In this document: positions 1,376 to 50,579 of the stretch, one piece after another | Layout of the letters: each line of letters begins with the position of its first letter | Position numbering within the stretch: the stretch's first letter is position 1 | IMG/VR virus record: IMGVR_UViG_3300025120_013924 | Coordinates: 1 to 62,817 of that record | Reading direction: 5' to 3' (one strand) | DNA length: 62,817 nucleotides | From: a virus | Program-made: the position numbers and the translations under genes | The notes under the pieces: model-generated | The model's database searches: none | What the model was told of the DNA's origin: nothing | Seen by the model: only the letters and a program-made list of their open reading frames with translations

Positions 1376-1735
1376 TTACAGGTTCTTCAACTCGTAATAT
1401 TCGATAAAGTCTTCCATGCCATAATATTCTTTGCTAAAGTCTGGCTCGAACAATCTGTCTTCTGATGGCATTTTCCATTCAGCGTCACCTTGGTTTAGCA
1501 CGGTCACAGTTTTGTCTCCTCGCATCAAAGCTTCAACTAGTCTGTGATATCCGTTTGTAAGCTCGTATTTGCCTTCCAGAGGGTGCTTACTAACAAATAG
1601 CGGTCCACTTGTCATGCTGCTCATTCCACGCGACAGATTGCTTACAGCGGCTTCTATCTCATCTTTTGTCAAAACAAGATCTTGTATGTTTATTTTGAAG
1701 CTTTCTTTATTTTCGAGCCAGATTTTAAATTTCAT
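1376..1735 (-). CDS. tagged protein with ParB/Srx-like core
   Basis: 119 residues starting MKFKIWLENKES, a clear copy of the F-x-x-W-L-E tag. The middle (about residues 58-75) reads YELTNGYHRLVEALMRGD, which resembles the 'nGnHRl.Al...G' box of ParB/sulfiredoxin-like domains, although the rest of a ParB domain is not obvious. It faces the lipoprotein gene, with about 20 bases between the two stops. I infer a head-packaged protein that may bind DNA or nucleotide. The tag is certain as a pattern; the ParB assignment is tentative. Confidence 0.55.
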   Translation of the reverse strand: MKFKIWLENKESFKINIQDLVLTKDEIEAAVSNLSRGMSSMTSGPLFVSKHPLEGKYELTNGYHRLVEALMRGDKTVTVLNQGDAEWKMPSEDRLFEPDFSKEYYGMEDFIEYYELKNL

Positions 1736-7885: not shown

Positions 7886-8158
7886 ATGAGTTATCGAAAC
7901 ATAGATCAAGATATTCGGCTTTTGAAAATGGCTGAAAGATATTGGACTGAAGACCAGCTAACTAAAGAACAAGTTCACTGGGTTTTATCTTCAGAAGGTT
8001 ATTCTCAAAAAGAAATAGACAACGCTATTGCTGATTACTACAGCATTCATTTAAGATCTAGTTTGTTGTTGCATCATTTTATAGCTCCTTTCGTTCTGCT
8101 ATTTGTAATGATGGTTTTAGTTTACAAGATTTATTCACTAATAGCATCTCAAAACTAA
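7886..8158 (+). CDS. small membrane protein with N-terminal helical domain
   Basis: 90 residues with AAAAGGA before the ATG. Residues 1-50 are a soluble helical segment (WTEDQLTKEQVHWVLSSEG) and residues about 60-84 form one membrane helix. The architecture matches the 78-residue protein at 24538: a short domain about transit along helices (K/E-rich, 'T.eql...') followed by a hydrophobic tail. Its last bases overlap the stop of the convergent nucleotidyltransferase gene by 4. Function unknown; a small inner-membrane effector is possible. Confidence 0.6.
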   Translation: MSYRNIDQDIRLLKMAERYWTEDQLTKEQVHWVLSSEGYSQKEIDNAIADYYSIHLRSSLLLHHFIAPFVLLFVMMVLVYKIYSLIASQN

Positions 8159-9483
8159 TCTTTATTTATTTCTTTCCATTTTTGATAATTTATATCGTAA
8201 TCATCTGACTGTAGTTCTTTTATTTTAGATCCAATTTCTGGACCCATTTTTTCAAGACCGAGTTGTTTTTTAATATCCTCACCTTTGTAAGATTTAGGTT
8301 CATACTCACCAAGGTGTCTCATTCTGTTTGAGTCTACTTCTTTGTCAACCATAGGTTGGAAGTCTTTTATCAACTCTTTTTTGAAATCAAAATCTTTTTT
8401 AGACATTGCATTTGCATGTTGACTAATTTCTTTCTTGCTTGGATTCTGCAAAACTTCCCAAGTTCTGATCAAGTTGTAAACTTGGTCAGATATCATATTG
8501 GGATATTTTAATTTATTCAATTTAGATTTAACTTCTTTCGCTCCAGATTTCCTTAGCAACACGGCTAAAGTCAATATAACTTTTTTTGTAGCTTCATTTG
8601 GAAGTTTTTGAAGTTCGTCTACAGATTTAATATCAAGTTTTAAACCCGGAAACATGTATGGCAAAGCGCCTATAGACTCAAAGCTGTGCAATACAACTCT
8701 AGGATCTCTTGCTTTAATAAGCGCAGAAACAAATTCAGCTTGAACTCTTTCTGGAGAAACTCCTTCGAGACTGCTGAATTTCTTCATTGCTTCAAATGTA
8801 TCTTTATCTACAACATCTTTTAATTTATCTTTATTAAAGATGCCATGAAAACGAACTGCTCTTAAAACTCTAAGTGGATCTTCGGCAAATCTATCTTTGG
8901 CACTTCCAACAGCGGATACTTTTTTGCTTTTTATATCTTCAAACCCTTTTCCGCCTCCAAAGTCAATTATCTTTCCTGTTCCGCCAGAACTTCTAGGCAT
9001 GTCATAAAACAATGCATTGAAAGTGAAATCTCTTCTTTTGTAATCATTCTTCGCATCACTTGCCCTTACATCGCTAGGTCTTCTGCGATCTGCATAGCCA
9101 GATTCTTCTCTAAACGTTGCTATTTCATATTCTTCGCCATCAACAATAGCAGAAATAACTCCAAAAGCTTCTCCTTTTGGTATTTGTTTTATCCCTGCAT
9201 CCTCAAGAACTTTTTTAACTTCTTTAGTGCGAGCATTAGTGGCCAAGTCCACATCTTTTATTTTATATGGAAGATCGTGAAATTTACTCATCAGATAATC
9301 TCTGACTGTTCCTCCTACAACATAAATTGTGTATCCAGCATCTTTGAATAAATTAGATAGCATTTGCGCACCATCTTGAAATTTACCCAAAGGTATTGTG
9401 GCATTCATTTTGGATGGCTCTTTTTTTGAGTCTTCTTCTTGCTCTAAGAAAACTTTAAATTTTATTTCGTGTTCTTTTTTCAT
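8155..9483 (-). CDS. CCA-adding / poly(A) polymerase-like nucleotidyltransferase, tagged
   Basis: 442 residues. Class II nucleotidyltransferase signatures are intact: VVGGTVRDYL (about 55-64), the metal-binding DVDLAT with Asp77 and Asp79, RRDFTFNALFYD (about 155), and EDPLRVLRAVRFHG followed by the helical neck/body. Length suits a bacterial CCA or poly(A) polymerase. The N-terminus has a 25-residue extension with KFKVFLEQEED, the tag shared with other genes here, absent from host enzymes. It could repair tRNA 3' ends or tail RNA early in infection, perhaps delivered with the DNA. ATATATAAAATACC lies directly before the ATG. A catalytically degraded relative is encoded at 32400-33086. Confidence 0.85.
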   Translation of the reverse strand: MKKEHEIKFKVFLEQEEDSKKEPSKMNATIPLGKFQDGAQMLSNLFKDAGYTIYVVGGTVRDYLMSKFHDLPYKIKDVDLATNARTKEVKKVLEDAGIKQIPKGEAFGVISAIVDGEEYEIATFREESGYADRRRPSDVRASDAKNDYKRRDFTFNALFYDMPRSSGGTGKIIDFGGGKGFEDIKSKKVSAVGSAKDRFAEDPLRVLRAVRFHGIFNKDKLKDVVDKDTFEAMKKFSSLEGVSPERVQAEFVSALIKARDPRVVLHSFESIGALPYMFPGLKLDIKSVDELQKLPNEATKKVILTLAVLLRKSGAKEVKSKLNKLKYPNMISDQVYNLIRTWEVLQNPSKKEISQHANAMSKKDFDFKKELIKDFQPMVDKEVDSNRMRHLGEYEPKSYKGEDIKKQLGLEKMGPEIGSKIKELQSDDYDINYQKWKEINKD

Positions 9484-10104: not shown

Positions 10105-10134
10105 TTTCAAACCTCATTAAACCAGAAGTGAAAT

Positions 10135-13980: not shown

Positions 13981-14295
13981 ATGAATTTTAAAAATTTTAT
14001 AGAGATGGCAAGTTTTACATTGCCAAAATTAATAAAAATTGATGACAAAAGATATAACGCTATAGACATGATGTTTGAAAAAGAGCCAACAACATACAAC
14101 AAAGATGGAAAAGTCATGAATCAAGGAAGTAAATTTATTGCGAGAGTCCCAGACGCAGGAGAATATTTAGCTTATAACGGAGGAGGCGATGCTTTTTTTG
14201 TTGATTCTAAAAAAGCAGAAGAGCTAGTTAGTGACAAAGGTTATGAAGATATACCAGATACTTGGTGGAAAAAAGCAAGGTTTATAGATGATTAG
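13981..14295 (+). CDS. tagged protein, unknown function
   Basis: 104 residues, opening MNFKNFIEMAS, a good tag match. The remainder is a compact alpha/beta-like segment (RYNAIDMMFEKEP, GEYLAYNGGGDAFFVDS, DTWWKKARFIDD) that I cannot name. Its stop overlaps the start of the 736-residue tagged protein by 8 bases, so both are made together. Inferred head-packaged protein. Confidence 0.6.
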   Translation: MNFKNFIEMASFTLPKLIKIDDKRYNAIDMMFEKEPTTYNKDGKVMNQGSKFIARVPDAGEYLAYNGGGDAFFVDSKKAEELVSDKGYEDIPDTWWKKARFIDD

Positions 14296-16498
14296 TTTCA
14301 AGAAATATGTAGAAGTTAAAGGCCATAGTCTTGAAAATGTAGATTTAGATAGAGATCTGCATTTTGATAATATATTTGGTAGTAAGCTTCGCGTAGCTTT
14401 CCCTTTAGATCAAAATGAGTATATTCAAAAACTTACAAATGAACTAGAGAAGTTAGAATACAAAGTAGACTATGATGATTTAATTAATAAAAAAATAGCC
14501 TACAAAAGAATGAATACTAAACAAGGTGAAAAATTAAGACCTCAAAAAATAGGCAAAATACTACAAGCAAATAAGTCAAAAGAACTACTTGATTGGTGGC
14601 AGAAAAATAGCGAAAGCTTAAAGAAAAGTGAAACAGGAGCTTCGGTTGTTGTCTCAAGAAGTCCAATTGATCTTATTAGAATGAGCGATCATGATGGAAT
14701 TAGTAGTTGCCATAGTCCAGACAATAGTTATTTTCAATGTGCTAGACAAGAAGCAAAAACTGGTGGCGCTATAGCCTATGTTGTAAAGAACTCTGATTTA
14801 GCAAAAGTTAATTTGCAAGACAATGAAATATTTAGAGATAGAGATAGAGGAGTTCAAGGAATAGTTCCTTTAGAAAGAGTTAGGCTAAGAAGATTGTCAA
14901 ATAAAGATGCTGATCTAATCATGCCAGAACTAAGAACTTATGGAATTAGAAACATAGGTTTTTTAGATGCTGTTAAAAAATGGGCTAAGTCTAGCCAAAG
15001 TGATATCATAAAACAAATCAACCCTAAAGAAGATTTTGATTCTTTTGATTTAAAGGGAGGAACTTATCAAGATTCTCAAGCAGACGATGTTTGGAATGAT
15101 TTTTTTGATACTGCTTCGGCTCGTGGTCGAAAAGAAAGTGATGATTTTGATGAGGAAAATGAAGATAGCAACATGCCATCTTTAGAAAGGGCGCAAGATC
15201 AATTAGAAGAACATCAAAGAGAATGGAAACATGTTAGTGCTTATGTAGACGGAGATGATGGGTATCTTTATTATAGCGGATACGTTGGAGTTGAAATTCC
15301 TAAAAAAATGCTTATTGTTGATTTTGACGAACACGAAAACAATATAGAAACTGTTATTAGAGATGAAATTGATATAGACGGAATAGAAGCTATTGAATCG
15401 GAAGAACAAAGTGGCAATTATTTATTTAGAATAGACTTCAATGATAGAAATGATCATTACGGCAATGAAGATTTAAATCTCCAATTTGAGCGATTTTTAG
15501 ATTACTGTGATGATGTAGATAGAGATTACAAGGAAAACCTATCTAAAGTTTACAAAGTACTCATGGAAGATGGTTATTTAAAAAACCCTACTGAAAAGAT
15601 AACATTTAAAAATTTCGACATAAATTTAGATGACGATGGCCTTATGGAAATAAAATCAAAAGAGCCAGAGAAAATTGGATATCTTAAAGATTTTGAAATT
15701 CGTAGAGATTTAGTTGATAGTAGAGGTGGTAAAGCTAGGTTTAATTTCTTAGGTCAGACGGGGCAAACTTTAGGTCTTTCTTTCACTGATTTTGTAAATC
15801 AAGCAAGAGTGTTGCCATTTAAATTAGACAGTAGCATATCTAATAGACTTTTCATGAAAGAAGCAGAAACTCAAGGTTGGCTTCCTTCAAGACGAGCAAA
15901 CTATGATGACAAAAGCAGACAAAGCACAGCTTACGACAAACAACTAACAACTAAATTAACAGGATGGGTTTATCTTGATATAGAACAACTCATACCTATA
16001 AAAGATAGAAAAGTGTTATCAGCTTATAAAAACTTAGATAGAAACTGGGATTTTTACCTGAAGAAATTGAATAAGTTGTTTGATGGTTGGATTGGGATTG
16101 TAAATAAAAAAATAAATCTTAAACAACTTGCTAAAAAACCAACCTTTCCTAAAAGACCAAAGCAACTTTCTTTTGGATTTAAAGAATGGATGGAAGCTAC
16201 TCAACAATCTTTAAAAGGATATAAAATAGTTGCTCATGATAGTGGAAAGCTCTACAGTCTGCAGAATCCAAATTTGGAATATTCTGTTAAGGTTGGAACA
16301 GTAGAATCTCCAAATGAAGGTTTGTTTCTTGGGACAGACAAAGACTTTGTAATGAATTATTATTCAGAACTGACAGACAAAGAAGATGCTCTCCTTACAT
16401 ATGAATATGATGTTGAAGATGTTCTATCTGGAAACCCTGATGAGCAGGGAGAAGTAAAAGTCAAAAAAGCAAAGTTAAAATCAGTTCAAGTAATTTAA
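14288..16498 (+). CDS. large two-tag protein, possible ART-like C-terminal domain
   Basis: 736 residues. The start MISFKKYVEVKGH is a tag; a second one, FGFKEWMEATQQ, lies near residue 632. Between them, SRSPIDLIRMSDHDGISSCHSPDNSYFQCARQ (split here: residues about 122-153, with conserved-looking MSDH and SCHS) followed by FRDRDRGVQG forms a distinctive domain of unknown function, and an acidic stretch follows near 270. The segment after the second tag (GYKIVAHDSGKLYS, GLFLGTDKDFVMNYY, YEYDV) loosely resembles ADP-ribosyltransferase-type folds. Two tags suggest a polyprotein cut by the prohead protease. T4 Alt is a packaged ADP-ribosyltransferase, a useful analogy only. Confidence 0.6.
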   Translation: MISFKKYVEVKGHSLENVDLDRDLHFDNIFGSKLRVAFPLDQNEYIQKLTNELEKLEYKVDYDDLINKKIAYKRMNTKQGEKLRPQKIGKILQANKSKELLDWWQKNSESLKKSETGASVVVSRSPIDLIRMSDHDGISSCHSPDNSYFQCARQEAKTGGAIAYVVKNSDLAKVNLQDNEIFRDRDRGVQGIVPLERVRLRRLSNKDADLIMPELRTYGIRNIGFLDAVKKWAKSSQSDIIKQINPKEDFDSFDLKGGTYQDSQADDVWNDFFDTASARGRKESDDFDEENEDSNMPSLERAQDQLEEHQREWKHVSAYVDGDDGYLYYSGYVGVEIPKKMLIVDFDEHENNIETVIRDEIDIDGIEAIESEEQSGNYLFRIDFNDRNDHYGNEDLNLQFERFLDYCDDVDRDYKENLSKVYKVLMEDGYLKNPTEKITFKNFDINLDDDGLMEIKSKEPEKIGYLKDFEIRRDLVDSRGGKARFNFLGQTGQTLGLSFTDFVNQARVLPFKLDSSISNRLFMKEAETQGWLPSRRANYDDKSRQSTAYDKQLTTKLTGWVYLDIEQLIPIKDRKVLSAYKNLDRNWDFYLKKLNKLFDGWIGIVNKKINLKQLAKKPTFPKRPKQLSFGFKEWMEATQQSLKGYKIVAHDSGKLYSLQNPNLEYSVKVGTVESPNEGLFLGTDKDFVMNYYSELTDKEDALLTYEYDVEDVLSGNPDEQGEVKVKKAKLKSVQVI

Positions 16499-16501
16499 GA
16501 A

Positions 16502-17275
16502 ATGAAAACCATTATTCATATTGGCCAACAAAAAACAGCAACAACATCTATTCAAAGATACTTAAGAAACAATTGCAATTCTTATCTAAAAAAAGGAATT
16601 TACATTCCAATTAATTTCATGGGGATAGATGTTGAATTTGAAAAGACGGATCGAGTTGGCTTGCCCAAAGTAGTGAATCACCAACCTTTGCATATTTTTT
16701 CTCTTAGTGATAAAAGACTTTCTTATTGGTCGAGAAGATTAATTAATAAAAACCCAAGTTTTCTTAATCATATAAAAAACAATTTAGAAAATGAAGTGAA
16801 AAAAGTTTACAAGGATGCAGTTGAAAAGAAATGTGACAAAGTAGTTTGGTCCAATGAAGGACTTTATTTATTAAACTCATTAAGCGAATATCAAAATTTA
16901 AAAAACATATTCTCAATTCATTCTGATGAGATTGAAATAACATGTTGCTTTAGAGATAAAGAAGAGTATAGAGAATCTTTTACAAAACAGATTATGCGAC
17001 TTGAAACTAATCGACACAAAGGTAATCCAAACAACCACCCAGAACTAAGCAATCCTAAATCGTGTTACTACTTTGGAAAAGAATCATATCTGTATGACTA
17101 CAATCGCAAGAAAGAATTATTACAAGAGTGTTATGACAAATGTGTTTTTTTTAATTATTGCAAAGAAAACAATGTTGTTAATTTCTTAAATAAAATTTCT
17201 TTGCCTATTTGTGACAAACATACAAATGTGAGATCAAATGTAACTAATGGCAAGCGTCGATTACTGGTGCTTTAA
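16502..17275 (+). CDS. divergent sulfotransferase-like protein
   Basis: 257 residues starting MKTIIHIGQQKTATTSIQRYL, a clear PAPS-binding P-loop (GxxKTATTS). A putative 3'-phosphate loop is CCFRDKEEYRESFTKQI near residue 150. The middle part is basic and otherwise unfamiliar. It follows the two-tag protein after 3 bases and likely shares its transcript. It should use PAPS to sulfate an unknown acceptor. It is distinct in sequence from the three other sulfotransferase-like proteins here, so local duplication is not the origin. Confidence 0.7.
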   Translation: MKTIIHIGQQKTATTSIQRYLRNNCNSYLKKGIYIPINFMGIDVEFEKTDRVGLPKVVNHQPLHIFSLSDKRLSYWSRRLINKNPSFLNHIKNNLENEVKKVYKDAVEKKCDKVVWSNEGLYLLNSLSEYQNLKNIFSIHSDEIEITCCFRDKEEYRESFTKQIMRLETNRHKGNPNNHPELSNPKSCYYFGKESYLYDYNRKKELLQECYDKCVFFNYCKENNVVNFLNKISLPICDKHTNVRSNVTNGKRRLLVL

Positions 17276-22103: not shown

Positions 22104-22688
22104 CTATTTATTTTTTTTCCATATTCCGGATTTTTCTTTGCTGTCCGAATCAGCTTTTTCATAAGCTTTACAAAAACTTGTGAAATCAATATTTGACAAG
22201 GCAGGTTTTAGTTTTTCATAAACATATTCCCTATTGCTTGTCATTTTTTCAAAATCTAAAAATATAGTTTCTATATCATGCAAGGTTGTTTCTCTAATCA
22301 AAATTGAAATTGATTTATAAAACTCATCCAGTTGAGATTCATAATCAGTAGCGTTCCAAGTAAGACCACCAGCACGGTTTTGAAAATGCTCTCTAGATTT
22401 TGCTGCTTCTTCATATTTTCTAATGGGAACTATTACAAAATCTATTTTCCATTTTTTCTCCGTAACCAGATTTGAGATATGTCTAGAGAAAGTTGGAGAT
22501 TTTATGAACCTAATAGATTCATTTTTGGGATCGTTTCCATTAAGTTCTATTCCTGAATTACATTTATTGAATATATATTTCTGAATCTCTTTAGGATCTA
22601 TTCCCGTATTTAGATTAAGGTAAGTAAACAGCCTCATTAAAAATGTAGTGCCACACCTACCTGTTCCTGTCACCAGCACTTTGTTCAT
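22104..22688 (-). CDS. P-loop sulfotransferase-like protein
   Basis: 194 residues starting MNKVLVTGTGRCGTTFLMRLF, with GTGRCGTTFL as the PAPS 5'-phosphosulfate loop. The usual 3' loop is weakly visible around VPIRKYEEAAKSREHF near residue 85, typical of the STS-like 'IRHP..' strand. It lacks a membrane segment. Short for a sulfotransferase but the fold start is clear. AAGGAGG lies just before the ATG. Fourth sulfotransferase-like protein of the window. Confidence 0.7.
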   Translation of the reverse strand: MNKVLVTGTGRCGTTFLMRLFTYLNLNTGIDPKEIQKYIFNKCNSGIELNGNDPKNESIRFIKSPTFSRHISNLVTEKKWKIDFVIVPIRKYEEAAKSREHFQNRAGGLTWNATDYESQLDEFYKSISILIRETTLHDIETIFLDFEKMTSNREYVYEKLKPALSNIDFTSFCKAYEKADSDSKEKSGIWKKNK

Positions 22689-23327: not shown

Positions 23328-23735
23328 ATGAATGAATTAATATTAGAAATAAATAAACTGAGTGTAGAAGAAGTTGCCATAATAGTAGAAAACTATTGGT
23401 TGGAGTTGGCTGAGGTCGCAAAAGATCCTGCTCAAAAACAAACATTTTTACAAAAAGCTGGTGCTGTTGGAAAAAAAGTACTTCAAGGTATAGGCGGAGC
23501 AGCAAGAGGTGTGGCAGACGCATTTAAACAGGGATATGAAAACAAATCTAATATTGACAAAGTAATCCAACTTCTCACCGATGAGGGTCTTTATAATAAT
23601 GAAATAAAGGCAATTCTTGCAAAAGCGGTGATGCAGAAAGCACAAAAAGCCAAGGCATCTAAATCGCCAAATAAGTCCGGCCAAAAACAAATGAAATTGC
23701 CATTCAAAGAATGGCTTTTAGAAAACTCAAAATAA
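23328..23735 (+). CDS. helical protein with C-terminal tag
   Basis: 135 residues, AAAGAGG upstream. N-terminal helices (INKLSVEEVAIIVENYW), a Gly/Ala-rich linker, a helical pair near 80-115 with IDKVIQLLTDEGLYNNEIKAIL and a Lys-rich tail. It ends KLPFKEWLLENSK, a tag-like peptide at the C-terminus, not the start. Could be the end of a scaffold/core-like protein or a tag that works from either end. No other family recognised. Its end overlaps the convergent 23727 gene. Confidence 0.55.
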   Translation: MNELILEINKLSVEEVAIIVENYWLELAEVAKDPAQKQTFLQKAGAVGKKVLQGIGGAARGVADAFKQGYENKSNIDKVIQLLTDEGLYNNEIKAILAKAVMQKAQKAKASKSPNKSGQKQMKLPFKEWLLENSK

Positions 23736-25697: not shown

Positions 25698-26675
25698 TTA
25701 ATCAATGCTACCTATTTCTCCACCGTTGCGAGTAATAGCGCCAGCAAAGACTCTTAAATCAACATTGTCATTAATAGTTCTGGTTGATCCATCGGCATAT
25801 ACGCAGTTCATAACTCCGGGATGCATACTATATGCCTCACCATCATTAATAACATTAAAAGGAACATTGCCAGAACAGTTCTTGCACTTATCACCATTGG
25901 CATCAATACCATGTAATTTAAATGGACCTAAACTATCTGCCCAACTAATGCATTGGTTAGTTCCACCTGTAGGAGATCTTCCATTACTGGCTTTATAAAC
26001 ATCAGGTCTACTTGCGCACTCTACAATCATAAGAGTGTTGGAAAAACCATCAATGATATCCTGTTCCTTAGTTACCTTATCTTTTATCAAACAACCATCG
26101 TCCCCAGTTTTATTTGCATAAGGATCGCTACCAGCAGGAAAAACTTTATCTTTAACACCAGTAAATGTTTCATAGTCAGTATAACCAAGAATGTTAGGGT
26201 CTAAACTTGGAGCAGCACTATCGCTATCTCTAGTAGGCCCATCAACATTAACATAACCACCACCGGGAGGAAGTGCAGATGGACATTTTAGTACCGAGGC
26301 TTGTGTTGCAATAGCTTGAGTATTCTCCCACCAATTCTTATTAAAATCATATATGTTTGCTACATTGCCTTGCTCTAAATTTGCAAGAACAAATGCTCTC
26401 CAACTATGTTCTGTTCGTGATGGATTGCCAAGAGAACTAGGAGTTTCAGATAAATCTTTAGCCTCTATAGTCCAAGCAGCAGCAGGGAAATATTTTTTTT
26501 GATCTAAACTCATGTGCATTGCAAGACCTTGTTGTTTTAAATTATTAGAGCAACTTGCTCGTCTTGCCGCTTCTCTAGCTTGTTGAACAGCAGGCAATAA
26601 CAATCCTACTAGAACGCCAATAATTGCAATAACCACTAGTAATTCAATCAGCGTGAAACCTTTGCGATTCTTCAT
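25698..26675 (-). CDS. DUF1559 pseudopilin, planctomycete type
   Basis: 325 residues. KGFTLIELLVVIAIIGVLVG is a class III (prepilin) signal with Glu at +5, followed by the planctomycete-style LLPAVQQAREAARRASC. Near the C-terminus HPGVMNCVYADG is the H-X9-DG processing-associated motif of DUF1559 proteins, abundant in Planctomycetes and relatives. The rest contains CLIKD, NTLMIVE and several cysteines. In hosts these proteins are processed by a prepilin peptidase and assembled in pilus/secretion-like fibres. The phage copy, complete and next to tagged phage genes, may interfere with pili or be displayed on the cell. It has no visible promoter of its own that I can defend. Confidence 0.85.
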   Translation of the reverse strand: MKNRKGFTLIELLVVIAIIGVLVGLLLPAVQQAREAARRASCSNNLKQQGLAMHMSLDQKKYFPAAAWTIEAKDLSETPSSLGNPSRTEHSWRAFVLANLEQGNVANIYDFNKNWWENTQAIATQASVLKCPSALPPGGGYVNVDGPTRDSDSAAPSLDPNILGYTDYETFTGVKDKVFPAGSDPYANKTGDDGCLIKDKVTKEQDIIDGFSNTLMIVECASRPDVYKASNGRSPTGGTNQCISWADSLGPFKLHGIDANGDKCKNCSGNVPFNVINDGEAYSMHPGVMNCVYADGSTRTINDNVDLRVFAGAITRNGGEIGSID

Positions 26676-26762: not shown

Positions 26763-27179
26763 TTATTCAAATTTGTCAAAAGGGTGAAAAACTTTGACCC
26801 ATTTGCCTTTAAATAAGCTTTCTGGATCTTCAAATACTTGAGGACTATCATCATGGTGAATTAAAGAGTTTAGACCAGACAACATTTTTCCTTTAGGACC
26901 GCCGGTGGCAATTACATCTATTATTGGAAGCTCATTATCTTTAGCGAATTGCACTACTTCTGGTCTATCGCGATTTTTTCTTGCAGTTACAACATAAACT
27001 GAGTAGCCTTGAGAAGCGTATTTTTTTAGTTTTCTTACATTCTCTTCACACGGCTTCTCTGAACTAGAAGACCAAATTTCATTTTCTTCATCCCAAAAAG
27101 GCAAGGTTAATGTGTTATCAAAATCAAATGTAACTACACCTTTATCTTTTCGAGATTCTATCCATTTCTTAAAGCTCAT
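26763..27179 (-). CDS. tagged HAD-type phosphatase
   Basis: 138 residues. MSFKKWIESRKDKG is a tag. VVTFDFDNTLT at about 15-25 is HAD motif I (Asp19 and Asp21). VVTARKN near 66 is motif II, and HHDDSPQVFEDP near 110 the motif IV acidic pair. The short size (about 115 without the tag) suits a capless polynucleotide- or nucleotide-phosphatase-like HAD. Likely acts on phosphate ends or nucleotides, perhaps injected with DNA. First gene of a minus-strand block of tagged proteins to 29149. Confidence 0.75.
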   Translation of the reverse strand: MSFKKWIESRKDKGVVTFDFDNTLTLPFWDEENEIWSSSSEKPCEENVRKLKKYASQGYSVYVVTARKNRDRPEVVQFAKDNELPIIDVIATGGPKGKMLSGLNSLIHHDDSPQVFEDPESLFKGKWVKVFHPFDKFE

Positions 27180-27622: not shown

Positions 27623-29149
27623 TTATCTTCTTTTTTCTAATTCGAAAGCTCTACCGTTAGATATTAATTTCAATATATGTTTATATGCTAATTCTGGTTT
27701 CATTTTTTTAAATCTATTGTGATGTATAGCATCTGTCACAAAAGTTTTATCTTCTCCATCTATATTAGCTAAAATTCTTCCATCTTTAATCCATCCTGAC
27801 AATACTACTTTTGGGATTGAAGGCTTTGGATCAAATTGAAGTTTGAGTTGTGTGTTTTCTTCCATGTCTTCAAACTCTATTTCTGTTTCTGTAACCTTAT
27901 CTTCTATTCCATGTATTATCATTTTAGAAGCCTTTGCTATATTTTGTCTCCTAGCTTTAACATCATCACCTTTAGCTCGCCATAAAGCCAAGTAATTAGG
28001 GGCATCTTTGGTTTCAAAACCAAAATGATGACAAACAACATAGGCAGTTGTCTCAGCGTCTATTTCTTTTTGTTGTCTTGAAGATTGTTTTCCCAGATCA
28101 GATTTTTTACTTTTCTTTTCAAGCCAATGAAGTATTTCATGGGCTGTCTCATGAACCAAAGTGCTAAAAAGGTTCACTCCTTTAAACTTATTGTTGATAG
28201 CTATTTTGCCACCAGCAGAGTAACCGCCTAGGTCTTCAGCCATGTCTTCATAATCAACATTTATACTTTTTTCTTTATTCCATTTTACTAAAGAATTGAT
28301 AAGAACATTAAGTTCTTCTACATCTTCATTAGTATCGCTACTCCAATCTTTTCTATCAAGTGGCTTAAAAGAACTAGGATTACCCGGAATAGGGTCTGTT
28401 GCTGAATAATCATAAACCTTAACAGCTCTAAAAAACTTAAGTTGAACCTTTTCTTTTTCTCCTGTGCTAGGGTTTTCTTTTTCTATATTTTTAAAATTAG
28501 GAGCAAATATAACTATGCCTTTGTCCCAATTCGTAACTGTACGTCCTAGTTTTGTCCAATTTGTAGGAGAAGAAACATGCGCAGCTTGTCCTTTTGATTG
28601 AACATATATGAGAATTTGATTTGCCAAGCTATAATTATGGAATTTAGAAGAAAACTTTAAAAAATCTTTTATGAAACGTTGTTTTCCAGCTTCATCTGTA
28701 GAGTTGGCAACTTTTTCTATTAAGTTTTCTATATTGTCAACTAACTTTTTAAGTTTAGCATCCGTTCCTTTTTTTAGTTCTCCTTCTAGTGAGTCTTGTA
28801 CGTCTTGAAAGAAATCTTCCGTCTCTTGAGAACTTTTATTTTTTACTACACTAGAACTCGAAGGAGGACTAGTCATTGTTTTTTCTAGGCCACTTAAATC
28901 AACTCCCAAATCAACTAAAGATTGTTTAATATTTTCGAATTTAGATACTCCAATAGACCAAGTTCCTTTGAAGTATTTTAATCCTAATTTTTTCAATTCG
29001 TTTTTTATTGGATAGGTTGCTCCATATAAAACAACAAATTCTTTTTCGCTGAAGGACTTGGAGGAATCATATTTTGGATTTTCTTTTTTATAAACTCGAA
29101 CCCCTGTCGAATCTTCTTCCTCTAAAACTAGCCACTCTGAAAATTGCAT
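27623..29149 (-). CDS. tagged ArdC-like antirestriction metalloprotein
   Basis: 508 residues from ATG 29149, selected because GAGGG lies 6 bases upstream and the resulting start MQFSEWLVLEEED is a tag; the longer form from 29191 hides it. Residues about 35-85 form a small alpha/beta repeat-like domain; 110-300 match the ArdC N-terminal ssDNA-binding domain (KFHNYSLANQILIYVQS, WTKLGRTV); 333-337 is HETAH with a third zinc ligand at Glu366 (EIDAET). ArdC travels with plasmid DNA and shields it from restriction. A head-packaged version would enter with phage DNA, like T4 IPI. Start overlaps the upstream 29151 gene by none but follows after one base. Confidence 0.8.
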   Translation of the reverse strand: MQFSEWLVLEEEDSTGVRVYKKENPKYDSSKSFSEKEFVVLYGATYPIKNELKKLGLKYFKGTWSIGVSKFENIKQSLVDLGVDLSGLEKTMTSPPSSSSVVKNKSSQETEDFFQDVQDSLEGELKKGTDAKLKKLVDNIENLIEKVANSTDEAGKQRFIKDFLKFSSKFHNYSLANQILIYVQSKGQAAHVSSPTNWTKLGRTVTNWDKGIVIFAPNFKNIEKENPSTGEKEKVQLKFFRAVKVYDYSATDPIPGNPSSFKPLDRKDWSSDTNEDVEELNVLINSLVKWNKEKSINVDYEDMAEDLGGYSAGGKIAINNKFKGVNLFSTLVHETAHEILHWLEKKSKKSDLGKQSSRQQKEIDAETTAYVVCHHFGFETKDAPNYLALWRAKGDDVKARRQNIAKASKMIIHGIEDKVTETEIEFEDMEENTQLKLQFDPKPSIPKVVLSGWIKDGRILANIDGEDKTFVTDAIHHNRFKKMKPELAYKHILKLISNGRAFELEKRR

Positions 29150-29466: not shown

Positions 29467-29973
29467 ATGAATAAAACTTTTGAAGAATGGCTTAAACTTC
29501 GAGAAGAGGGCGGAGCATCAGGTGGATCAGGCGGAGCATCAGGTGGATCAGGCGGAGCATCAGGTGGATCAGGCGGAGCATCAGGTGGATCAGGCGGAGC
29601 ATCAGGTGGATCAAGTGGAGCATCAGGTGGATCAAGTGGAGCATCAGGTGGATCAAGTGGAGCATCAGGTGGATCAAGTGGAGCATCAGGTGGATCAAGT
29701 GGAGCATCAGGTGGCGAATCAGGCGGCGACTCGGGTGGAACACCACTGGGAGGTGACTCGGGTGACTCTGAAGGCGACTCAGAATCCAATGACTCAGGAT
29801 CAGATCCAAATGATTCCGCTACAACATCTAAAGACATTGCTAAACGTCCATACAGAGTAGGTTTTTATCCTTGGGGATTTGGACATTGGGTTCAGAAAAA
29901 GAAAAAGAAGAAATGCAAATACGGCAAAAGAAAAGATGGTAAATGCAGAAAAACTAAAAAGAGGAAAAAATAA
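29467..29973 (+). CDS. tagged Gly/Ser-repeat protein with basic C-terminus
   Basis: 168 residues, GGAG 7 bases upstream. MNKTFEEWLKLREEG is a tag, followed by ten 7-residue Gly-Ala-Ser repeats (about 15-84), an acidic Asp/Ser stretch and a basic tail KYGKRKDGKCRKTKKRKK. The Gly/Ser part should be unfolded, so the protein is an acidic-to-basic tether. A basic end suits DNA binding. Like other tagged proteins it may sit in the capsid. The opposite-strand proline-rich frames here are shadows of the repeat. Confidence 0.7.
   Translation: MNKTFEEWLKLREEGGASGGSGGASGGSGGASGGSGGASGGSGGASGGSSGASGGSSGASGGSSGASGGSSGASGGSSGASGGESGGDSGGTPLGGDSGDSEGDSESNDSGSDPNDSATTSKDIAKRPYRVGFYPWGFGHWVQKKKKKKCKYGKRKDGKCRKTKKRKK
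29509..29718 (+). repeat. 21-bp tandem repeat, ten units
   Basis: Ten units of 21 bp. The first five begin GGC (Gly), the next five AGT (Ser), each otherwise nearly identical, so the array grew by at least two rounds of duplication. In frame, encoding G/S-G-A-S-G-G-S. Copy number may vary between isolates. Confidence 0.9.
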
Positions 29974-31488: not shown

Positions 31489-32370
31489 TTAATCAACATG
31501 TAAATTATATTCTTCAAGATAAGAATCTACTACCGATGCCACATAAGAAGCATGGGGAGACATATCTCTCAGTTGCAGAAGCCTCGAAAAAGGACTGGAT
31601 TTTTCTGCTAGGAAAATTCCGTCCTTGTTTTTATAATAGTGTTTGCTGAAAGAAGGAGGTATTCCTTTGTCATAATGTATAAAAGGAACATCAATTTCAT
31701 CTGTTATATTACAAGACAAAACATCTCCTGATATTTCGCAATGCCCTACTGATTTTAAAAGGCTTTTTTTCCAAGAGGATTTTTCAAAAAATCTTCTATA
31801 CTTTTCTTCTTGGTCTCCTCCAATAGAATTAATAACGTCTGCTAATAAAAAATTAAAAAAGTTTTCTTTAAAAGAATCAGTAGTATTTTCATCATGATTA
31901 AAAACTATAGGATGTGAGTAGTAAAAATTATTTAAAGATTTAAGAACTCCTGTTTTAATTAGATTATTTTTAATTTCATCAAAATCTATAAACATATCAA
32001 TTTCTTCATCTTCTAATTGATATGTGTTTGTTGTTATATTAGATTCATATGGTTGAATAGGTTTGTTCAAAACCATGTCGGAGTGTATCAGTGTAAATGG
32101 AAATGTCAAAATGTTTTTACGCAAGGCTACTGTCAGAGAATAGATTCTGTTTAATTCCAAACAATCATTTTCCCTACCTAAATTTCTATGAGTGATGCAA
32201 TTCTTATGCTTAGATAAGTTCAGTATATAAGGCGTACTTTTAATAGTTTCATTTTCGGCTATGGCAATAATAAGATCGTCTTCAATTCCATGCATTTTAA
32301 AACTTTGGATTAGAAGTTCAGTCTGCCAATAGAAGTAGTCTATATTTTCTATGCTTACAAAATATTTCAT
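31489..32370 (-). CDS. putative glycosyltransferase
   Basis: 293 residues. The start MKYFVSIENIDYFYWQTELL and IIAIAEN resemble the first strands of a GT-A fold; TLIHSDMVLNKPI near 93 is a likely DxD-type metal site (H-S-D-M), and GDQEEKYRRFFEK near 188 with VPFIHYDKGIPP near 228 fits the acceptor/His-containing end seen in serine-type arabinosyl- or galactosyltransferase-like phage enzymes. I judge a glycosyltransferase likely, acceptor unknown. Monocistronic-looking, with 29 bases to the next gene. Confidence 0.55.
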   Translation of the reverse strand: MKYFVSIENIDYFYWQTELLIQSFKMHGIEDDLIIAIAENETIKSTPYILNLSKHKNCITHRNLGRENDCLELNRIYSLTVALRKNILTFPFTLIHSDMVLNKPIQPYESNITTNTYQLEDEEIDMFIDFDEIKNNLIKTGVLKSLNNFYYSHPIVFNHDENTTDSFKENFFNFLLADVINSIGGDQEEKYRRFFEKSSWKKSLLKSVGHCEISGDVLSCNITDEIDVPFIHYDKGIPPSFSKHYYKNKDGIFLAEKSSPFSRLLQLRDMSPHASYVASVVDSYLEEYNLHVD

Positions 32371-32399: not shown

Positions 32400-33086
32400 T
32401 TACATTAAGTGTAGTTCTTTTTGATTGATATCATAAAACCCTCTTTCTGTTGGATCAAATAATTTACTATTCTCTCCATCAATTTTAGTAAGTTCGATAT
32501 ACATTGCGTCTACTGTAAATTTAACTCTCTCTACATCTTTTTTAATATCATTCGTATATCTAAGATGAGTTTTTCCTTCTTCTTGGTATTCTTCTGTAAG
32601 CGTATCTATTTCGAATTGTTCTTTGTCAACTATGGCGCAAACAGTTGCCTCATTTTTATTTTCATTTTTATTTTTAATATACCATAATTTATGGTCGTTT
32701 TCATCCGCAATATCGGGTTTAAAAGAAATCTCAATTTTATTTTTACTTAAATTAAAATTTTCATTTGCTTTAAATCCAGCGCTATGAAGAATAAGGCAAA
32801 TTTGCTCTGGAGTGGCATCTGTGGTTAATTCAAATTTCTTAGGAGTTTTATTTCTAAGGAAATCTCTAACTGTAGATCTGCACAGCAACAAGGTCTTTTT
32901 AGGCATTTTTATTTGCTTGGATGTATCATCCATTATTTCTATAGAGTTGCTTTTAGAAAAAGCTTCAATAATAGGATTCATTTTAGAAGGAGGAACAAAT
33001 CCTTCTTCTAATTTAATATATTGTTTTTTCCAATTTCCATCATCTTCGCCTTCTTTTTCTATTAAAAAATCTTTAAATTTTTTCAT
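32400..33086 (-). CDS. tagged, catalytically degraded nucleotidyltransferase paralogue
   Basis: 228 residues; MKKFKDFLIEKEGE is a tag. LCRSTVRDFL (about 69-77) corresponds to VVGGTVRD of CCA/poly(A) polymerases, but the two Gly are Arg70 and Ser71. KFELTTDATPEQ (84-95) replaces the metal-binding DxDL by K-x-E-L, so both catalytic Asp are lost. VKFTVDAMYIEL matches RRDFTxNA, and LFDPTERGFYDI the following strand. It stops there, without the helical body. It is thus a palm-domain-only pseudoenzyme related to the protein at 8155. It overlaps the next tagged gene by 4 bases. Confidence 0.75.
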   Translation of the reverse strand: MKKFKDFLIEKEGEDDGNWKKQYIKLEEGFVPPSKMNPIIEAFSKSNSIEIMDDTSKQIKMPKKTLLLCRSTVRDFLRNKTPKKFELTTDATPEQICLILHSAGFKANENFNLSKNKIEISFKPDIADENDHKLWYIKNKNENKNEATVCAIVDKEQFEIDTLTEEYQEEGKTHLRYTNDIKKDVERVKFTVDAMYIELTKIDGENSKLFDPTERGFYDINQKELHLM

Positions 33087-33859
33087 TCCTCATCCTCATC
33101 TTTTTCTTTAGGATCATCAGGGCTTATGTCTCTTGCTGTTTTTCCTAACGGAAGAGGTTTTTTAGGCTTAAGCTGTATGCCAAGATCCAATTCATCGCCT
33201 TGTATGTTTCTGGAAACTATTTTAGGTTTTTCAAAATCAAAGTATTTTTCTAAATTTGTATGTTGCATTTTTATTACCTCTATAATAAGTGCAGTTGTAA
33301 ATGCCACTGCTCTATCATAAGTGGCAGCGTTTTCCTGCTCCATTTCTCTAGTTACATGAGCGAATTTAGTATCAGACTCTTTAGTTTCTCCTTCTTTTCT
33401 TATTCTTTTATCGTTTAAAATATCTTTTATTTTGTCTCGAATATTTTTTTTGTTTGTGCCGTAGCCTGATGGAGAAGTGCTTATGGTCATAGCATAATCG
33501 TCCTTATTAGGATCATTTCCAACCACTGGGACTTGAAGAGGAAGTTTCATATAAATTTCTAGTGGAACTCCTTCAGTAAGTCTTTTATAAATTAAAGGAA
33601 CTTCTAGTCTTGAAACAGCAGTAGGTTTTACTAAATCTTTTTGAATAGCTTGGCCTAAAGCTCCCATGACGCCGCCGATTGCTCGTTCAACATCTCCCGG
33701 ACTTGAGTCTTGACCGAATGTTCCTAAAGGTCCAATTCGTCCTATTCCAACGTTGCTTAATTCACTAGGCGTTTGATATCTTGTTCGTAATCTTGCTGGC
33801 CCAGCTTCATTTAATTGTTGTTCTTGTCGGCTTTTTAACCATTCATTAAAATTTTTCAT
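33083..33859 (-). CDS. tagged protein, unknown function
   Basis: 258 residues. MKNFNEWLKSRQEQQLNEAG is the best match in the window to a T4-like capsid-targeting peptide: F-x-x-W-L followed by LNE/AG, an (L/I)-x-E cleavage site. The rest has a proline-containing globular part (LEVPLIYKRLTEGVPLEIYM) and an acidic Lys/Asp end. I recognise no family. A likely packaged internal protein. Its stop overlaps the start of the degraded nucleotidyltransferase. Confidence 0.65.
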   Translation of the reverse strand: MKNFNEWLKSRQEQQLNEAGPARLRTRYQTPSELSNVGIGRIGPLGTFGQDSSPGDVERAIGGVMGALGQAIQKDLVKPTAVSRLEVPLIYKRLTEGVPLEIYMKLPLQVPVVGNDPNKDDYAMTISTSPSGYGTNKKNIRDKIKDILNDKRIRKEGETKESDTKFAHVTREMEQENAATYDRAVAFTTALIIEVIKMQHTNLEKYFDFEKPKIVSRNIQGDELDLGIQLKPKKPLPLGKTARDISPDDPKEKDEDEE

Positions 33860-34253: not shown

Positions 34254-34724
34254 ATGCCTAATAAAGAAGAAGAATTAATAAAATCAAAAGATGACGCTCT
34301 GATTGAAAAAGAAAAGCAAGAATTGGTTAAAAAAGAAGAACAAGAAAATTGCATAATAAGCGATGAAAATCTTCTTGGTGTATATGGGGAAGTAATGACT
34401 AATTTGAGGTCAGACAGAGATCAAATTTCTAATCTGGTGGATACTTTTTCGAATATGGTGATAAATGACGGAGATTGTTCTACTTCTAGCAAAGAGGCAT
34501 TAGTTAATTTGCTAAAAACAAAAATAGACACTAGCGACAAAATGTCAAAAATAGCGGATTTAATGACGAGGATAAAACTCAAGCAACCAGACACTTTCAA
34601 GCCATATATGAATGGCAGTAAAAAAGATAACGGAAATACAATAAATATTTATGATTCTAGTGGCATCAACAGAAAGTCTTTGATGGAAAAAATTCAGAAG
34701 GAAAAAAATAATGAACAAAAATAA
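34254..34724 (+). CDS. hypothetical structural-block protein
   Basis: 156 residues. Charged N-terminal helix (NKEEELIKSKDDALIEKEKQ, residues 3-22), a middle helical region with NLVDTFSNMVINDGD, and a C-terminal NTINIYDSSGINRKSLMEKI. A beta strand and basic helix at the end are typical of small phage morphogenesis proteins. I cannot assign it; a terminase-small-like or scaffold role is possible. First gene of the + strand virion block; its end overlaps the next gene by 14 bases. TATATATTATATTATG precedes the ATG. Confidence 0.5.
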   Translation: MPNKEEELIKSKDDALIEKEKQELVKKEEQENCIISDENLLGVYGEVMTNLRSDRDQISNLVDTFSNMVINDGDCSTSSKEALVNLLKTKIDTSDKMSKIADLMTRIKLKQPDTFKPYMNGSKKDNGNTINIYDSSGINRKSLMEKIQKEKNNEQK

Positions 34725-36066
34725 TTTACAAGACTGGTTAGCAGAACAAGATTCTACTTCAGCTCCAGACGGCGCAGTAGGTCCTCCTACGTCACAACCT
34801 GATTTTGCTGACACTATGATTCAAAAAGGACAAGATCCACTTGATCCTAATGCTCCTGTTGAAGATCCGGCATTAGCTGCATCTATGGGAATGGAAGATG
34901 AAGAATCTAAACCTGAAGATGAAGATTCTGCTCCGGAAGATAGTGTTGAGGATGAAATTGAAGAACCAGAATTCCCCGACTTCCCAGAAGAAGAAAAAGA
35001 TTTAGAAGATGATTTTGATTCTTGGAAAGAAAACTATTTTAGAGAATCAGTAAGTGGTAATTCAGCTAAGTTATTAGATTTGCTTTATCCTATGAGAAGC
35101 AAAGAAGAAGAATTAGAACCTTATCAAAGAAAGTTTGTTGAAGACAATATAAACATTCAACTAATAAGATTAAATGCAAATGTAGAAAAAGCAAGCAAAG
35201 CAATAAGAAAAAGTACAAAGCAGCAATTAGATAAAAACAACCCTTCTACAAGTTTAGTTGCGCATATCAATATGGTTTTAGATTCAATGCCTGATGTGAG
35301 CAACATATTTATAAAGATGACAGGATACTCAGGATACAAAGGCGAGCTTCATAGAAAGTTCATAGGAGCTTTAATAGGAGGCGTTCAAGTTAGCAGTAGC
35401 CCAGATAAAGAAAATTTAATTTTAAATGACAAAGAGTATTCAATAAAAATATCAACTAGATTGAATTCCGAATGGGGCGATGTATCTTTAGGAAGTTGGT
35501 CCTTAAAAGAAGACGATCCAGAGAAGTATCTGTCTGAGCCTGAACTTGCACGATTAACAGAAGGCAGTCCAGAAGAAAGAGACATACTTAGAAAAAGAGT
35601 AATCATTGAATCAATATCAAAACAATTTGAAGAACAATCTTTTATAGTCAATGTAGTTGATGAAGATGGAACAATTGTTTACTTGGGTTGTGATATAGCT
35701 AATGCTCTTAGAGGAGCTTATTCAGATGGAAAACTAGTTGTTAAAAACGACAAGTCTTTAGACTCTGAAGCCATCATTGATGAAAATGGAACTATATTGG
35801 CAATGTCAGATCTAAAAATAAATTTTGTAAAAGAAACAGGTGAGTTCGATGCAGAAGGTCAACCAGTGACAGAAGAATTAAGTTTCATGCAAAAGAAAAA
35901 TGGAATGCTGTTCTTAACAGCTTCTTATTCAACAATAAACGATGCTGCATACGTGATGCAGGGAACAGTCGTAAAAGAAACACCATATAAAGGAAACCCT
36001 AGTGACCTTAAAGACATAAGAAGTTGTGTCTACAGCTGTCACGATTTATTGATGAGGCAGTGCTAA
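34711..36066 (+). CDS. tagged structural protein, unknown
   Basis: 451 residues. NNLQDWLAEQDS at the start is a tag with LAE as a possible cleavage site, followed by a long acidic, Pro/Glu-rich linker (about 12-110) and a globular domain. The latter contains YQRKFVEDNINIQLIRLNANV, GELHRKFIGALIGGV and STRLNSEWGDVSLG. Probably a virion or internal protein; family not recognised. Its stop (TAA) overlaps the next start (TAATG). Confidence 0.6.
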   Translation: MNKNNLQDWLAEQDSTSAPDGAVGPPTSQPDFADTMIQKGQDPLDPNAPVEDPALAASMGMEDEESKPEDEDSAPEDSVEDEIEEPEFPDFPEEEKDLEDDFDSWKENYFRESVSGNSAKLLDLLYPMRSKEEELEPYQRKFVEDNINIQLIRLNANVEKASKAIRKSTKQQLDKNNPSTSLVAHINMVLDSMPDVSNIFIKMTGYSGYKGELHRKFIGALIGGVQVSSSPDKENLILNDKEYSIKISTRLNSEWGDVSLGSWSLKEDDPEKYLSEPELARLTEGSPEERDILRKRVIIESISKQFEEQSFIVNVVDEDGTIVYLGCDIANALRGAYSDGKLVVKNDKSLDSEAIIDENGTILAMSDLKINFVKETGEFDAEGQPVTEELSFMQKKNGMLFLTASYSTINDAAYVMQGTVVKETPYKGNPSDLKDIRSCVYSCHDLLMRQC

Positions 36067-36560
36067 TGAAATTTTCAAGTTTTGTAGATGTTAAAAATAA
36101 AGAAATAATTGAAAAATTAAAAGTTCTTTCTAAAGTTATAGGTCAAGATTTTGAAGTTAAAGAATTCTTAGAAGATATGGAAAATCCTTATTTGTATGTT
36201 TCGCCTGAAAAAACAATGGATTTACCTTTTGATGGAGTTAGAGTTTATCAAATAGGATCTAGCTTTGCATATAGAGTTCAAAATGAGAATACGTCTGAGC
36301 CTTATGGAACTGCCTATTCTTTAAATATAGAAAAAGCATATGAAGATTTAGCTCCTGATATGGAAGGCGTGAAAATGGCAAAAACTATATCCAACATTGT
36401 AATTGAAGAATTTGAAAGTTTTTTCAAACAAAGTTCTAAAGCAGAAGTTGATCAAAGATCAGTTTTATTTTCTAGAAATCCAGTATCTAAAAACAATGAT
36501 GTATCTAATCAAGTCACTGTTGGTAGAGCTTTGGGTGATTATTCTAATTCGATTTATTAA
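36066..36560 (+). CDS. hypothetical virion-block protein, weakly tag-like start
   Basis: 164 residues from ATG 36066, coupled to the previous stop. MKFSSFVDVKNKEI resembles the tag loosely (F-x-x-F-V). Two alpha/beta segments (PFDGVRVYQIGSSFAYRV; TAYSLNIEKAYEDLAPDM) follow; the C-terminus is Ser/Asn-rich. No family recognised. Sits in the run that leads to the tape measure. Confidence 0.55.
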   Translation: MKFSSFVDVKNKEIIEKLKVLSKVIGQDFEVKEFLEDMENPYLYVSPEKTMDLPFDGVRVYQIGSSFAYRVQNENTSEPYGTAYSLNIEKAYEDLAPDMEGVKMAKTISNIVIEEFESFFKQSSKAEVDQRSVLFSRNPVSKNNDVSNQVTVGRALGDYSNSIY

Positions 36561-36562
36561 TC

Positions 36563-37117
36563 ATGGCAGTTCCAAATAATTTAATTGAACAAGTTTTCAG
36601 GCGAGTTGGTTCAAATAAACAATTATCTAATACTGTAAAAAAAGGAAGTTTAATAACTTTCAATTATACTTTTTTTAAAAATGATCCTTATCCCTTGGTG
36701 ATTGCCAGCACTGTTAATCCGGGAAGCAAAATCTGGGGAATAAACCTACATTATTTAACTTTTAACTATATTAAAAAAACTTTAAGAAACTGCAATAATC
36801 CATTTTTTTCATATGCAGGATCTATAAAAGGCGATTCTTTTTTGCAAAATGCATATAGATCTTACAAATGGTCAGGCATTAGACAAATAAAAGTACTAGA
36901 TTGCGATGTTCTATTGGATGCAATAGGCACTACAAGAAGCATAGATCCAGCAGAAGTTGAAATAATAAGAAGAAATGCAGAAGAGCAAATTAATAAACAA
37001 ATTAACCCAAAAGCGAACGAAGTTAATTTGAAAACACTAAATAACATACAGCAAGATGCACCTACTGGAATTATTCCTACCGTACCCAACGTCCCATCTA
37101 TAAATGACCCGGAATAA
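36563..37117 (+). CDS. structural protein with GINLHYL motif
   Basis: 184 residues. Residues about 30-70 read GSLITFNYTFFKNDPYPLVI and WGINLHYLTFNYIKKTLRN. The combination YPLV...G-I/L-N-LHYL recurs, as I recall, in small proteins of T4-like and marine myoviruses of unclear role. A Pro-rich, disordered tail follows. It ends 3 bases before the tape measure. Probably tail or DNA-packaging related. Confidence 0.55.
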   Translation: MAVPNNLIEQVFRRVGSNKQLSNTVKKGSLITFNYTFFKNDPYPLVIASTVNPGSKIWGINLHYLTFNYIKKTLRNCNNPFFSYAGSIKGDSFLQNAYRSYKWSGIRQIKVLDCDVLLDAIGTTRSIDPAEVEIIRRNAEEQINKQINPKANEVNLKTLNNIQQDAPTGIIPTVPNVPSINDPE

Positions 37118-49004: not shown

Positions 49005-50579
49005 ATGCCCGATAATTGCCCATTTGACGTCAATCCTTTATCGGAACCTTTAATTACAAAAAATGAAAGTTTCAGTAATGTAAATTATACTAATCAAGAC
49101 TTTTGGTCTTTAAAAAATAGATTGGTTGATTTTATTAATGAAAGATTTGGAGAAAATGGAAACACTCTTCCAAACACTTTTAATGATTTAGTAGAAGGTT
49201 CAATAGCAATAATGCTCATAGAAAATTGGGCGTTTATTGGAGATACTCTTTCATTCAAAATTGATCAAATTGTAAATGAGTTATTTATAGACACAGTCAC
49301 AGAATCAGACAACGCTTTTAGACTATGTAAATTAGTTGGATTTGAACCAACTCCTCCAATTCCTTCTAGAGCTTTATTTACAGCAACAATAAATACAAGT
49401 TACGATCAAGACATAACATTGCCTGCACCTTTATCTGTTGATGTTGTTTCTGATGGCGCTCAAATACAATATGAACTTTTCCCAGCAGACTCTGAAAACA
49501 ATCCTATTTTCGATCAAGATATTATCATATCTTCTGGAACTTCTGTTAACTCTGCAATTGTGGGACTTCAAGGCTCAACAGCAGTCGATGAACATGCAGG
49601 AACTGGGGCTATCTTGCAATCTTATGAAACAAGATTTGATTCTATAATTTATGATTCTGTTTCAGTAAAAGTTGATGGCGCTCAATGGGAAAGAGTAGAT
49701 TATTTTACGGATTCGCAACCTAGAAAAGAATTTAGAGTAGAATATGATTCAAGTTATAGAGCTTATGTAATGTTTGGAAATAACAAAGTAGGGTTATCTC
49801 CAGCAAATGGTTCTAGTATAGAAATAAATTATAGAATTGGCGGAGGAACTATTGGAAATATAGTCACTGGTTCTGTGAATATACAGAGACAGGCTAGGGT
49901 TTTTGGAAATGATTTTAATGTCCCTGTTTTTATATCAAATTACACAAAAGGAGAATTTGGTTACGACGGGGACACAGTAGACGACATAAGAGCAAAACTT
50001 CCGTTGTATTTAAGAACTCAAAATAGAGCAGTAACAGGAAGTGATTATAAAAATTTAACTGACCAATTTGTTTCTCCATATCACGGACAGATAGGAAAAT
50101 CTACTGCTGTTTTAAGAAACCAAGGTTGTTCTGGAAACGTGGTTGATATTTACATATTATCAAAATTAAACGCAAATGGATTACAAGAAGCAAATGATGA
50201 GTTAAAAAATGATTTAAGCGAAATGCTTGAAGAAAAGAAAATGATTACTGATTTTGTATGCTTGAAAAACGGCCAAATAATAGAAACAGATGTGTCTGTA
50301 GTGGTTGAAGTTCCAAGAACAGAAAGAAAATTTGAACAAGAAATTAAACAAAATATAGAAGTTAAAATTAATGATTTTTTTAGCTTAAGTAATTGGGATT
50401 ATGGTCAAGCTTTAAAAGAATCTGATTTAATTAAAAATTTATCTGCTATTAAGTCAGCAAAAAGTTTTGATGTAATTTATACAACAAATGACGAAGATAA
50501 TTCAGGAAGCATAGTAACCACTAAGTTTTATGAGATAATTAGACCTGACGTAGTAGAAATTTCATTTATGTATGTTTAA
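49005..50579 (+). CDS. baseplate J / gp6-like wedge protein
   Basis: 524 residues. DFWSLKNRLVDFINERFG, SIAIMLIENWAFIGDTLSFKIDQ and NRAVTGSDYKNLTDQF are strong baseplate J signatures, with the beta domain in the middle (YDSSYRAYVMFGNNKVG). Forms the iris ring of the baseplate. The preceding gp25-like and following gpI-like genes complete the wedge set. Confidence 0.85.
   Translation: MPDNCPFDVNPLSEPLITKNESFSNVNYTNQDFWSLKNRLVDFINERFGENGNTLPNTFNDLVEGSIAIMLIENWAFIGDTLSFKIDQIVNELFIDTVTESDNAFRLCKLVGFEPTPPIPSRALFTATINTSYDQDITLPAPLSVDVVSDGAQIQYELFPADSENNPIFDQDIIISSGTSVNSAIVGLQGSTAVDEHAGTGAILQSYETRFDSIIYDSVSVKVDGAQWERVDYFTDSQPRKEFRVEYDSSYRAYVMFGNNKVGLSPANGSSIEINYRIGGGTIGNIVTGSVNIQRQARVFGNDFNVPVFISNYTKGEFGYDGDTVDDIRAKLPLYLRTQNRAVTGSDYKNLTDQFVSPYHGQIGKSTAVLRNQGCSGNVVDIYILSKLNANGLQEANDELKNDLSEMLEEKKMITDFVCLKNGQIIETDVSVVVEVPRTERKFEQEIKQNIEVKINDFFSLSNWDYGQALKESDLIKNLSAIKSAKSFDVIYTTNDEDNSGSIVTTKFYEIIRPDVVEISFMYV

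Follow-up and report, generated by a model that had tools for sequence, protein, structure and literature searches.

An ArdC-like protein with a leader resembling the T4 capsid targeting sequence in an uncultivated T4-like phage

ArdC and head-packaged antirestriction proteins

The ArdC proteins of R388 and pSa (PDB 6I89, 6SNA) have a two-domain fold in which an ArdC-N domain is joined to an HExxH zincin domain, the same arrangement as in the phage protein described here. R388 ArdC counters HsdRMS, prefers single-stranded DNA and overhangs, and does not require its protease site for antirestriction, with no target being degraded (PMC7213743). It helps when expressed in recipients and not in donors (PMC7213743), while pSa ArdC is said to be carried with the plasmid DNA (PMC5512222). 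An earlier reading of the present locus from its letters alone (the sequence-only reading) had stated that ArdC proteins travel with plasmid DNA, a premise that stands for pSa but is weak for R388. Delivery of ArdC-N proteins together with DNA was predicted by Iyer et al. (2017; PMC5512222), whose polyvalent proteins likewise combine ArdC-N with MPTase-PolyVal domains. These predictions of delivery rest on domain architecture and gene context, whereas the phage protein shows a specific candidate loading signal. A later survey suggested that ArdC-like peptidases of jumbo phages might cleave host proteins (PMC7824862).

The internal proteins of phage T4 are diverse proteins behind one leader, in a phage with a T4-type core and protease, and one of them, IPI*, is injected and inhibits restriction (PMC3012670, PMC9026906). 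The target to which IPI* binds is a restriction enzyme (PMC3012670); ArdC, in contrast, is believed to bind DNA. The proposal that a tagged ArdC follows the same defence logic as T4 IPI therefore carries over for delivery, injection being predicted for the ArdC-like protein, but not for mechanism. The cargo differs too: here it is an ArdC with two domains and some 500 aa, whose proposed target is DNA, and not a nuclease. The Dar proteins of phage P1 (DarA, DarB, DdrA, DdrB) are also head-packaged antirestriction proteins, and a packaging signal is located at the N-terminus of DarB (PMC9024508). However, BLAST shows no leader common to the Dar proteins, unlike the tagged proteins described below, and DarB, going by its description, is not ArdC-like. 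No paper on an ArdC protein with a capsid targeting leader was found in the open-access literature.

The ArdC-like gene and its modelled fold

The stretch analysed, referred to below as the window, is the whole IMG/VR virus record IMGVR_UViG_3300025120_013924 (62,817 nt), from an uncultivated phage. The phage is T4-like, a context marked by two of the genes in Table 1, both T4-like tail genes. The T4 late promoter TATAAATA was not enriched (6 found against 8.1 expected). The host may be a planctomycete, as two genes are planctomycete-typical, namely a DUF1559 pseudopilin-like gene at 25698-26675 (-) and, at 3663-7643 (-), a gene whose long product looks secreted and bears a PESLERRAML motif. 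Genes resembling glycosyltransferases or sulfotransferases, assigned by eye only, are located at 1871-2791, 2775-3572, 9508-10110, 16502-17275, 22104-22688 and 31489-32370.

Table 1. Features of the window: the ArdC-like gene and its parts, other tagged proteins, and T4-like marker genes.
Feature	Position	Strand	Remarks
ArdC-like protein with capsid-targeting-like leader, 508 aa	27623..29149	-	ATG start at 29149
Leader peptide MQFSEWLVLEEE, residues 1-12	29114..29149	-	LEE (L/I-x-E) at residues 9-11, possible protease site
Small alpha/beta domain, residues 17-85	28895..29101	-	Absent from plasmid homologues read
ArdC-N DNA-binding domain, residues 135-246	28412..28747	-	Pfam PF08401
Zincin-like metallopeptidase domain, residues 278-421	27887..28318	-	HETAH at 28139-28153; invariant E362/E366
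Tagged protein (MKFKIWLENKES)	1376..1735	-	
Tagged poly(A) polymerase/CCA-type nucleotidyltransferase	8155..9483	-	
Tagged protein (MNFKNFIEMAS)	13981..14295	+	
Tagged protein (MISFKKYVEVKG)	14288..16498	+	Weaker match
Tagged small HAD-like protein (MSFKKWIESRKDKG)	26763..27179	-	
Tagged Gly/Ala/Ser-repeat protein (MNKTFEEWLKLREEGG)	29467..29973	+	GASGGS repeats, Lys-rich C-terminus
Tagged nucleotidyltransferase head domain (MKKFKDFLIEKEGE)	32400..33086	-	Shorter than tagged orthologs
Tagged protein (MKNFNEWLKSRQEQQLNEAG)	33083..33859	-	
Protein with tag variant, L for F (MNKNNLQDWLAEQDS)	34711..36066	+	Relatives: MNHNLEFWLEAE
Tagged protein (MKFSSFVDVKNK)	36066..36560	+	Adjoins gp2-like gene; tag kept in relatives
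T4 gp2-like DNA end protector	36563..37117	+	Marks T4-like phage context
T4 gp6-like baseplate wedge	49005..50579	+	Marks T4-like phage context

The open reading frame of the ArdC-like protein (27623-29149) is genuine, and its coordinates are exact for the ATG start at 29149. A longer alternative begins at 29191, but the start at 29149 was preferred because GAGG lies immediately upstream of it, it abuts the stop of the upstream gene and the close orthologs use the same start. The ArdC-N domain was recognised by PF08401 over residues 135-246 (E 1.4e-5; 25.7 bits against a cut-off of 22.6), a model matched by 11 of 12 homologues, and PHROG 7245, 'anti-restriction protein', covered most of the core (E 3.9e-13). 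HETAH corresponds to residues 333-337, and in an alignment of the 12 homologues H333, E334, H337, E362 and E366 were invariant; the MPTase-PolyVal model of Pfam remained below its cut-off (17.5 against 27.5 bits). These matches, together with the leader statistics given below, bear out the view that an ArdC-N domain and a HETAH zinc site are fused to a tag-bearing start.

A structure model was built from the 12-homologue alignment (mean pLDDT 68). Its sole strong structural match was R388 ArdC (Foldseek 6i89, E 3.8e-9), and VIA-align superposed the model on R388 ArdC with a Z of 12.7 over 242 residues (15% identity); the runner-up, the zincin IrrE, reached a Z of 8.1 over 88 residues. The comparison with ArdC that the sequence-only reading had proposed as a check thus returned R388 ArdC as the best match, and in the model the overall fold is that of a two-domain ArdC. 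R388 ArdC was reached by structure comparison only, and not by single-sequence or profile searches of PDB sequences. Beyond this core the phage protein has the leader, a C-terminal extension and, at residues 17-85, the small alpha/beta domain, which had no significant match in the PDB, the best being translation initiation factor 1-like (E 0.06).

A leader shared by unrelated proteins

A position matrix of the leader was trained on N-termini from the window together with seven related contigs, and interior segments taken from these proteins served for comparison. Scores above 6 bits were obtained for 11 of the 65 window N-termini against 11 of 900 interior segments (0.8 expected; Fisher p 2e-8), a comparison that favours the window N-termini as the matrix was partly trained on them. 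With a fixed pattern, matches were found at 9 of 67 window N-termini and at 1 of 343 internal Met sites (p 5e-7), and over six contigs at 61 of 658 N-termini and 18 of 2842 internal Met sites. An [LIVM]xE motif soon after the aromatic residue was present in 60% of 85 tagged N-termini as against 26% of interior segments, a difference that is partly built into the matrix.

The ArdC-like protein does bear the tag, as had been claimed, but the tag is not special to it, since about ten other window proteins carry it (Table 1), as do unrelated proteins of relatives. As the tag-bearing proteins are otherwise unrelated, the leader is a module. Nucleotidyltransferases, a HAD-like protein and a Gly/Ala/Ser-repeat protein are among those tagged in the window, and relatives have tagged versions of a RecD/Dda-like helicase, an AAA_33 kinase and an FMN reductase. 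Tagged repeat proteins similar to the product of 29467..29973 occur in G005, G007 and G008. The tagged helicase (L102:752-2437, G001; AAA_30, UvrD_C_2) has a weak N-terminal DnaJ match. In two proteins the tag motif is C-terminal (KLPFKEWLLENSK, SFKEWMSFNP), namely those of window 23328-23735 (+) and G008:131190-131663 (+).

In T4, IPII and IPIII begin with MKTYQEFIAEA and IPI with MKTFKEF, and the cut in IPII and IPIII is shown after MKTYQEFIAE, before the final A. The genetics of IPIII assigned targeting to residues 4 and 7 and processing to residues 8 and 10, and the cleavage rule of gp21 is L/I-x-E (PMC9026906). The tag has the spacing of the T4 leaders, with F, W/F three residues on, L/I, and then Glu two to four residues later, so that both are short N-terminal leaders of the form aromatic-x-x-aromatic-aliphatic followed by Glu, and the aromatic-x-x-aromatic pair to which targeting has been assigned by T4 genetics is present in the tag. 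It differs from the T4 sequence in its preference for Trp at the second aromatic position. The ArdC-like protein carries LEE, and among seven close homologues an L/I-x-E site is present in four and absent from three. The strict tag matrix missed the T4 internal proteins at threshold because Tyr was absent from the training tags. When the tag pattern was widened to Y and T (M-x(1-3)-[FY]-x-x-[FW]-[LIVMT]), it matched 6 of 295 T4 gene calls, which were IPI, IPII, IPIII, gp61.1 and two calls matching no annotated gene; as the widening was made with the T4 sequences in view, these matches constitute a consistency check, not a blind test.

The leader was kept in six orthologs of the ArdC-like protein (65, 58, 51, 50, 48 and 47% identity). 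A second set of ArdC proteins, at 25-26% identity, begins with MISFKNIKSLLSEK or close variants, on contigs whose replication genes are T4-like by eye. On neighbouring genes of this set, LLxE was found at 12 of 45 N-termini against 0.3 expected, the loci being near-duplicates, and over larger pieces of two of its contigs at 12 against 4.7 expected. The ArdC homologue of G035 (L154, MLLREYFQLAANG) was left out of the tagged proteins as its tag is not clear. Among ArdC homologues in 1,981 plasmid records none covers 80% of the query. The four plasmid homologues read, and two of three non-T4 phage homologues, start almost directly at the ArdC core, and the third phage homologue is a multidomain protein in which the tag is absent. 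Bacterial and archaeal genomes, searched with a narrow set of two ArdC patterns, yielded no close relative.

In two related contigs, G008 and G022 (18.7-kb), the ArdC ortholog was found together with a T4-type portal and prohead protease, and gp23 was recognised by profile in G008 and by eye in G022. The distance in G022 between the ArdC gene and the portal, prohead protease and gp23 genes is 4-10 kb. The gp23 N-termini contain L/I-x-E motifs (ILENQRLMNEAMTDSGD in G022, LLENQRLINENSTDSGD in G008), which may be cut sites. The window is a fragment with no head genes, and the head protease of its phage is thus deduced from relatives.

Proposed head loading and its alternatives

Since its first dozen residues resemble the head-loading signal of T4, the phage probably injects the ArdC-like protein with its DNA, to shield it from bacterial defences. 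From the fold, the modular leader, the conservation and the head genes of relatives, all of which were observed, we infer the steps that would lead from the prohead core to the shielding of DNA. The leader (F3..W6-L7) would bind the prohead core, so that the protein is built into the prohead, where a gp21-like protease may cut after the L/I-x-E site (after LEE, before the following E). The protein would then be packed with the DNA and injected, and ArdC-N would bind the entering DNA and hinder restriction before any phage gene is expressed, with a preference for single-stranded or overhang regions by analogy with R388 ArdC; the zincin domain may have a secondary role or another one. While R388 ArdC is made in the recipient, the phage protein is proposed to be head-loaded, and such pre-loading would solve the timing problem of R388 ArdC. 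Head packaging is the best explanation of the tagged ArdC-like protein, and on the sequence data we consider it likely. That its function is antirestriction, by analogy with ArdC, is held with moderate confidence, and the reading as a whole, an ArdC with a T4-type capsid targeting leader that is head-loaded, injected and shields DNA, is on balance probable.

Once packaged and injected, the protein could alternatively function by cleaving a host protein, such as one that is DNA-bound or serves in defence, rather than by shielding DNA. The HExxH motif and the later Glu are invariant in the 12 homologues, there is similarity between the zincin domain and both IrrE and Spartan, a DNA-protein crosslink protease, and host-protein cleavage has been proposed for the jumbo-phage peptidases (PMC7824862). 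However, the ArdC-N domain is conserved too, and antirestriction by R388 ArdC involves neither the protease site nor degradation of a target (PMC7213743), and we regard a protease role as unlikely. The protein could also be unpackaged and made early after infection, its leader serving otherwise, for example in binding another phage protein or a replication compartment. The action of R388 ArdC when expressed in the recipient (PMC7213743) and the shortness of the leader, of only about 10 residues, are in keeping with this; but the same leader stands on many unrelated proteins, matches the T4 targeting sequence at the genetically marked residues and occurs in phages that have a T4-type core and protease, which makes early synthesis a rather improbable account. 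Highly improbable is a role in the structure or assembly of the prohead core, with the fold serving the head or DNA packaging and not defence: the ArdC gene is near the head gene cluster in G022 and G035, and P1 Dar proteins are head components of which some also set head size (PMC9024508), but an ArdC match in only 6 of 21 related records, many of them fragments, is more in keeping with an accessory cargo than with a part of the core.

The head-loaded ArdC would appear to be a T4-style internal protein built on ArdC, and to belong to a group of several tagged cargo proteins. Should this be correct, a family of antirestriction proteins known from conjugative plasmids has been recruited as an injected internal protein of the T4 style, and at least two T4-like lineages have placed different leaders on ArdC. 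The 2017 prediction that ArdC-N enters with phage DNA would gain a concrete, testable loading signal.

More tentatively, the capsid targeting tag of this clade can be envisaged as a plug-in that loads an enzyme kit into the head to act at time zero, a possibility we rate a little short of even. The proposed kit comprises ArdC, CCA/poly(A)-type nucleotidyltransferases and a HAD-like phosphatase, to which relatives add a RecD/Dda-like helicase and an AAA_33 kinase, and it would protect DNA and repair RNA before any phage gene expression. The tagged poly(A) polymerase/CCA-type nucleotidyltransferases occur in two copies in the window, the second shortened, and as one full-length tagged protein in the relatives (L094:15585-17081 (-)); a pattern scan for relatives with a tRNA nucleotidyltransferase query found none. 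Their tags suggest that tRNA or RNA repair enzymes are injected. For uncultivated phages, in which proteomics is difficult, the tag provides a sequence criterion by which head-packaged cargo may be catalogued. In T4 itself, gp61.1 (NC_000866 18966-19130 (-)) starts with MKTFKEFIKEDMVAG, very like the leaders of the T4 internal proteins, and may be an unnoticed head-packaged protein.
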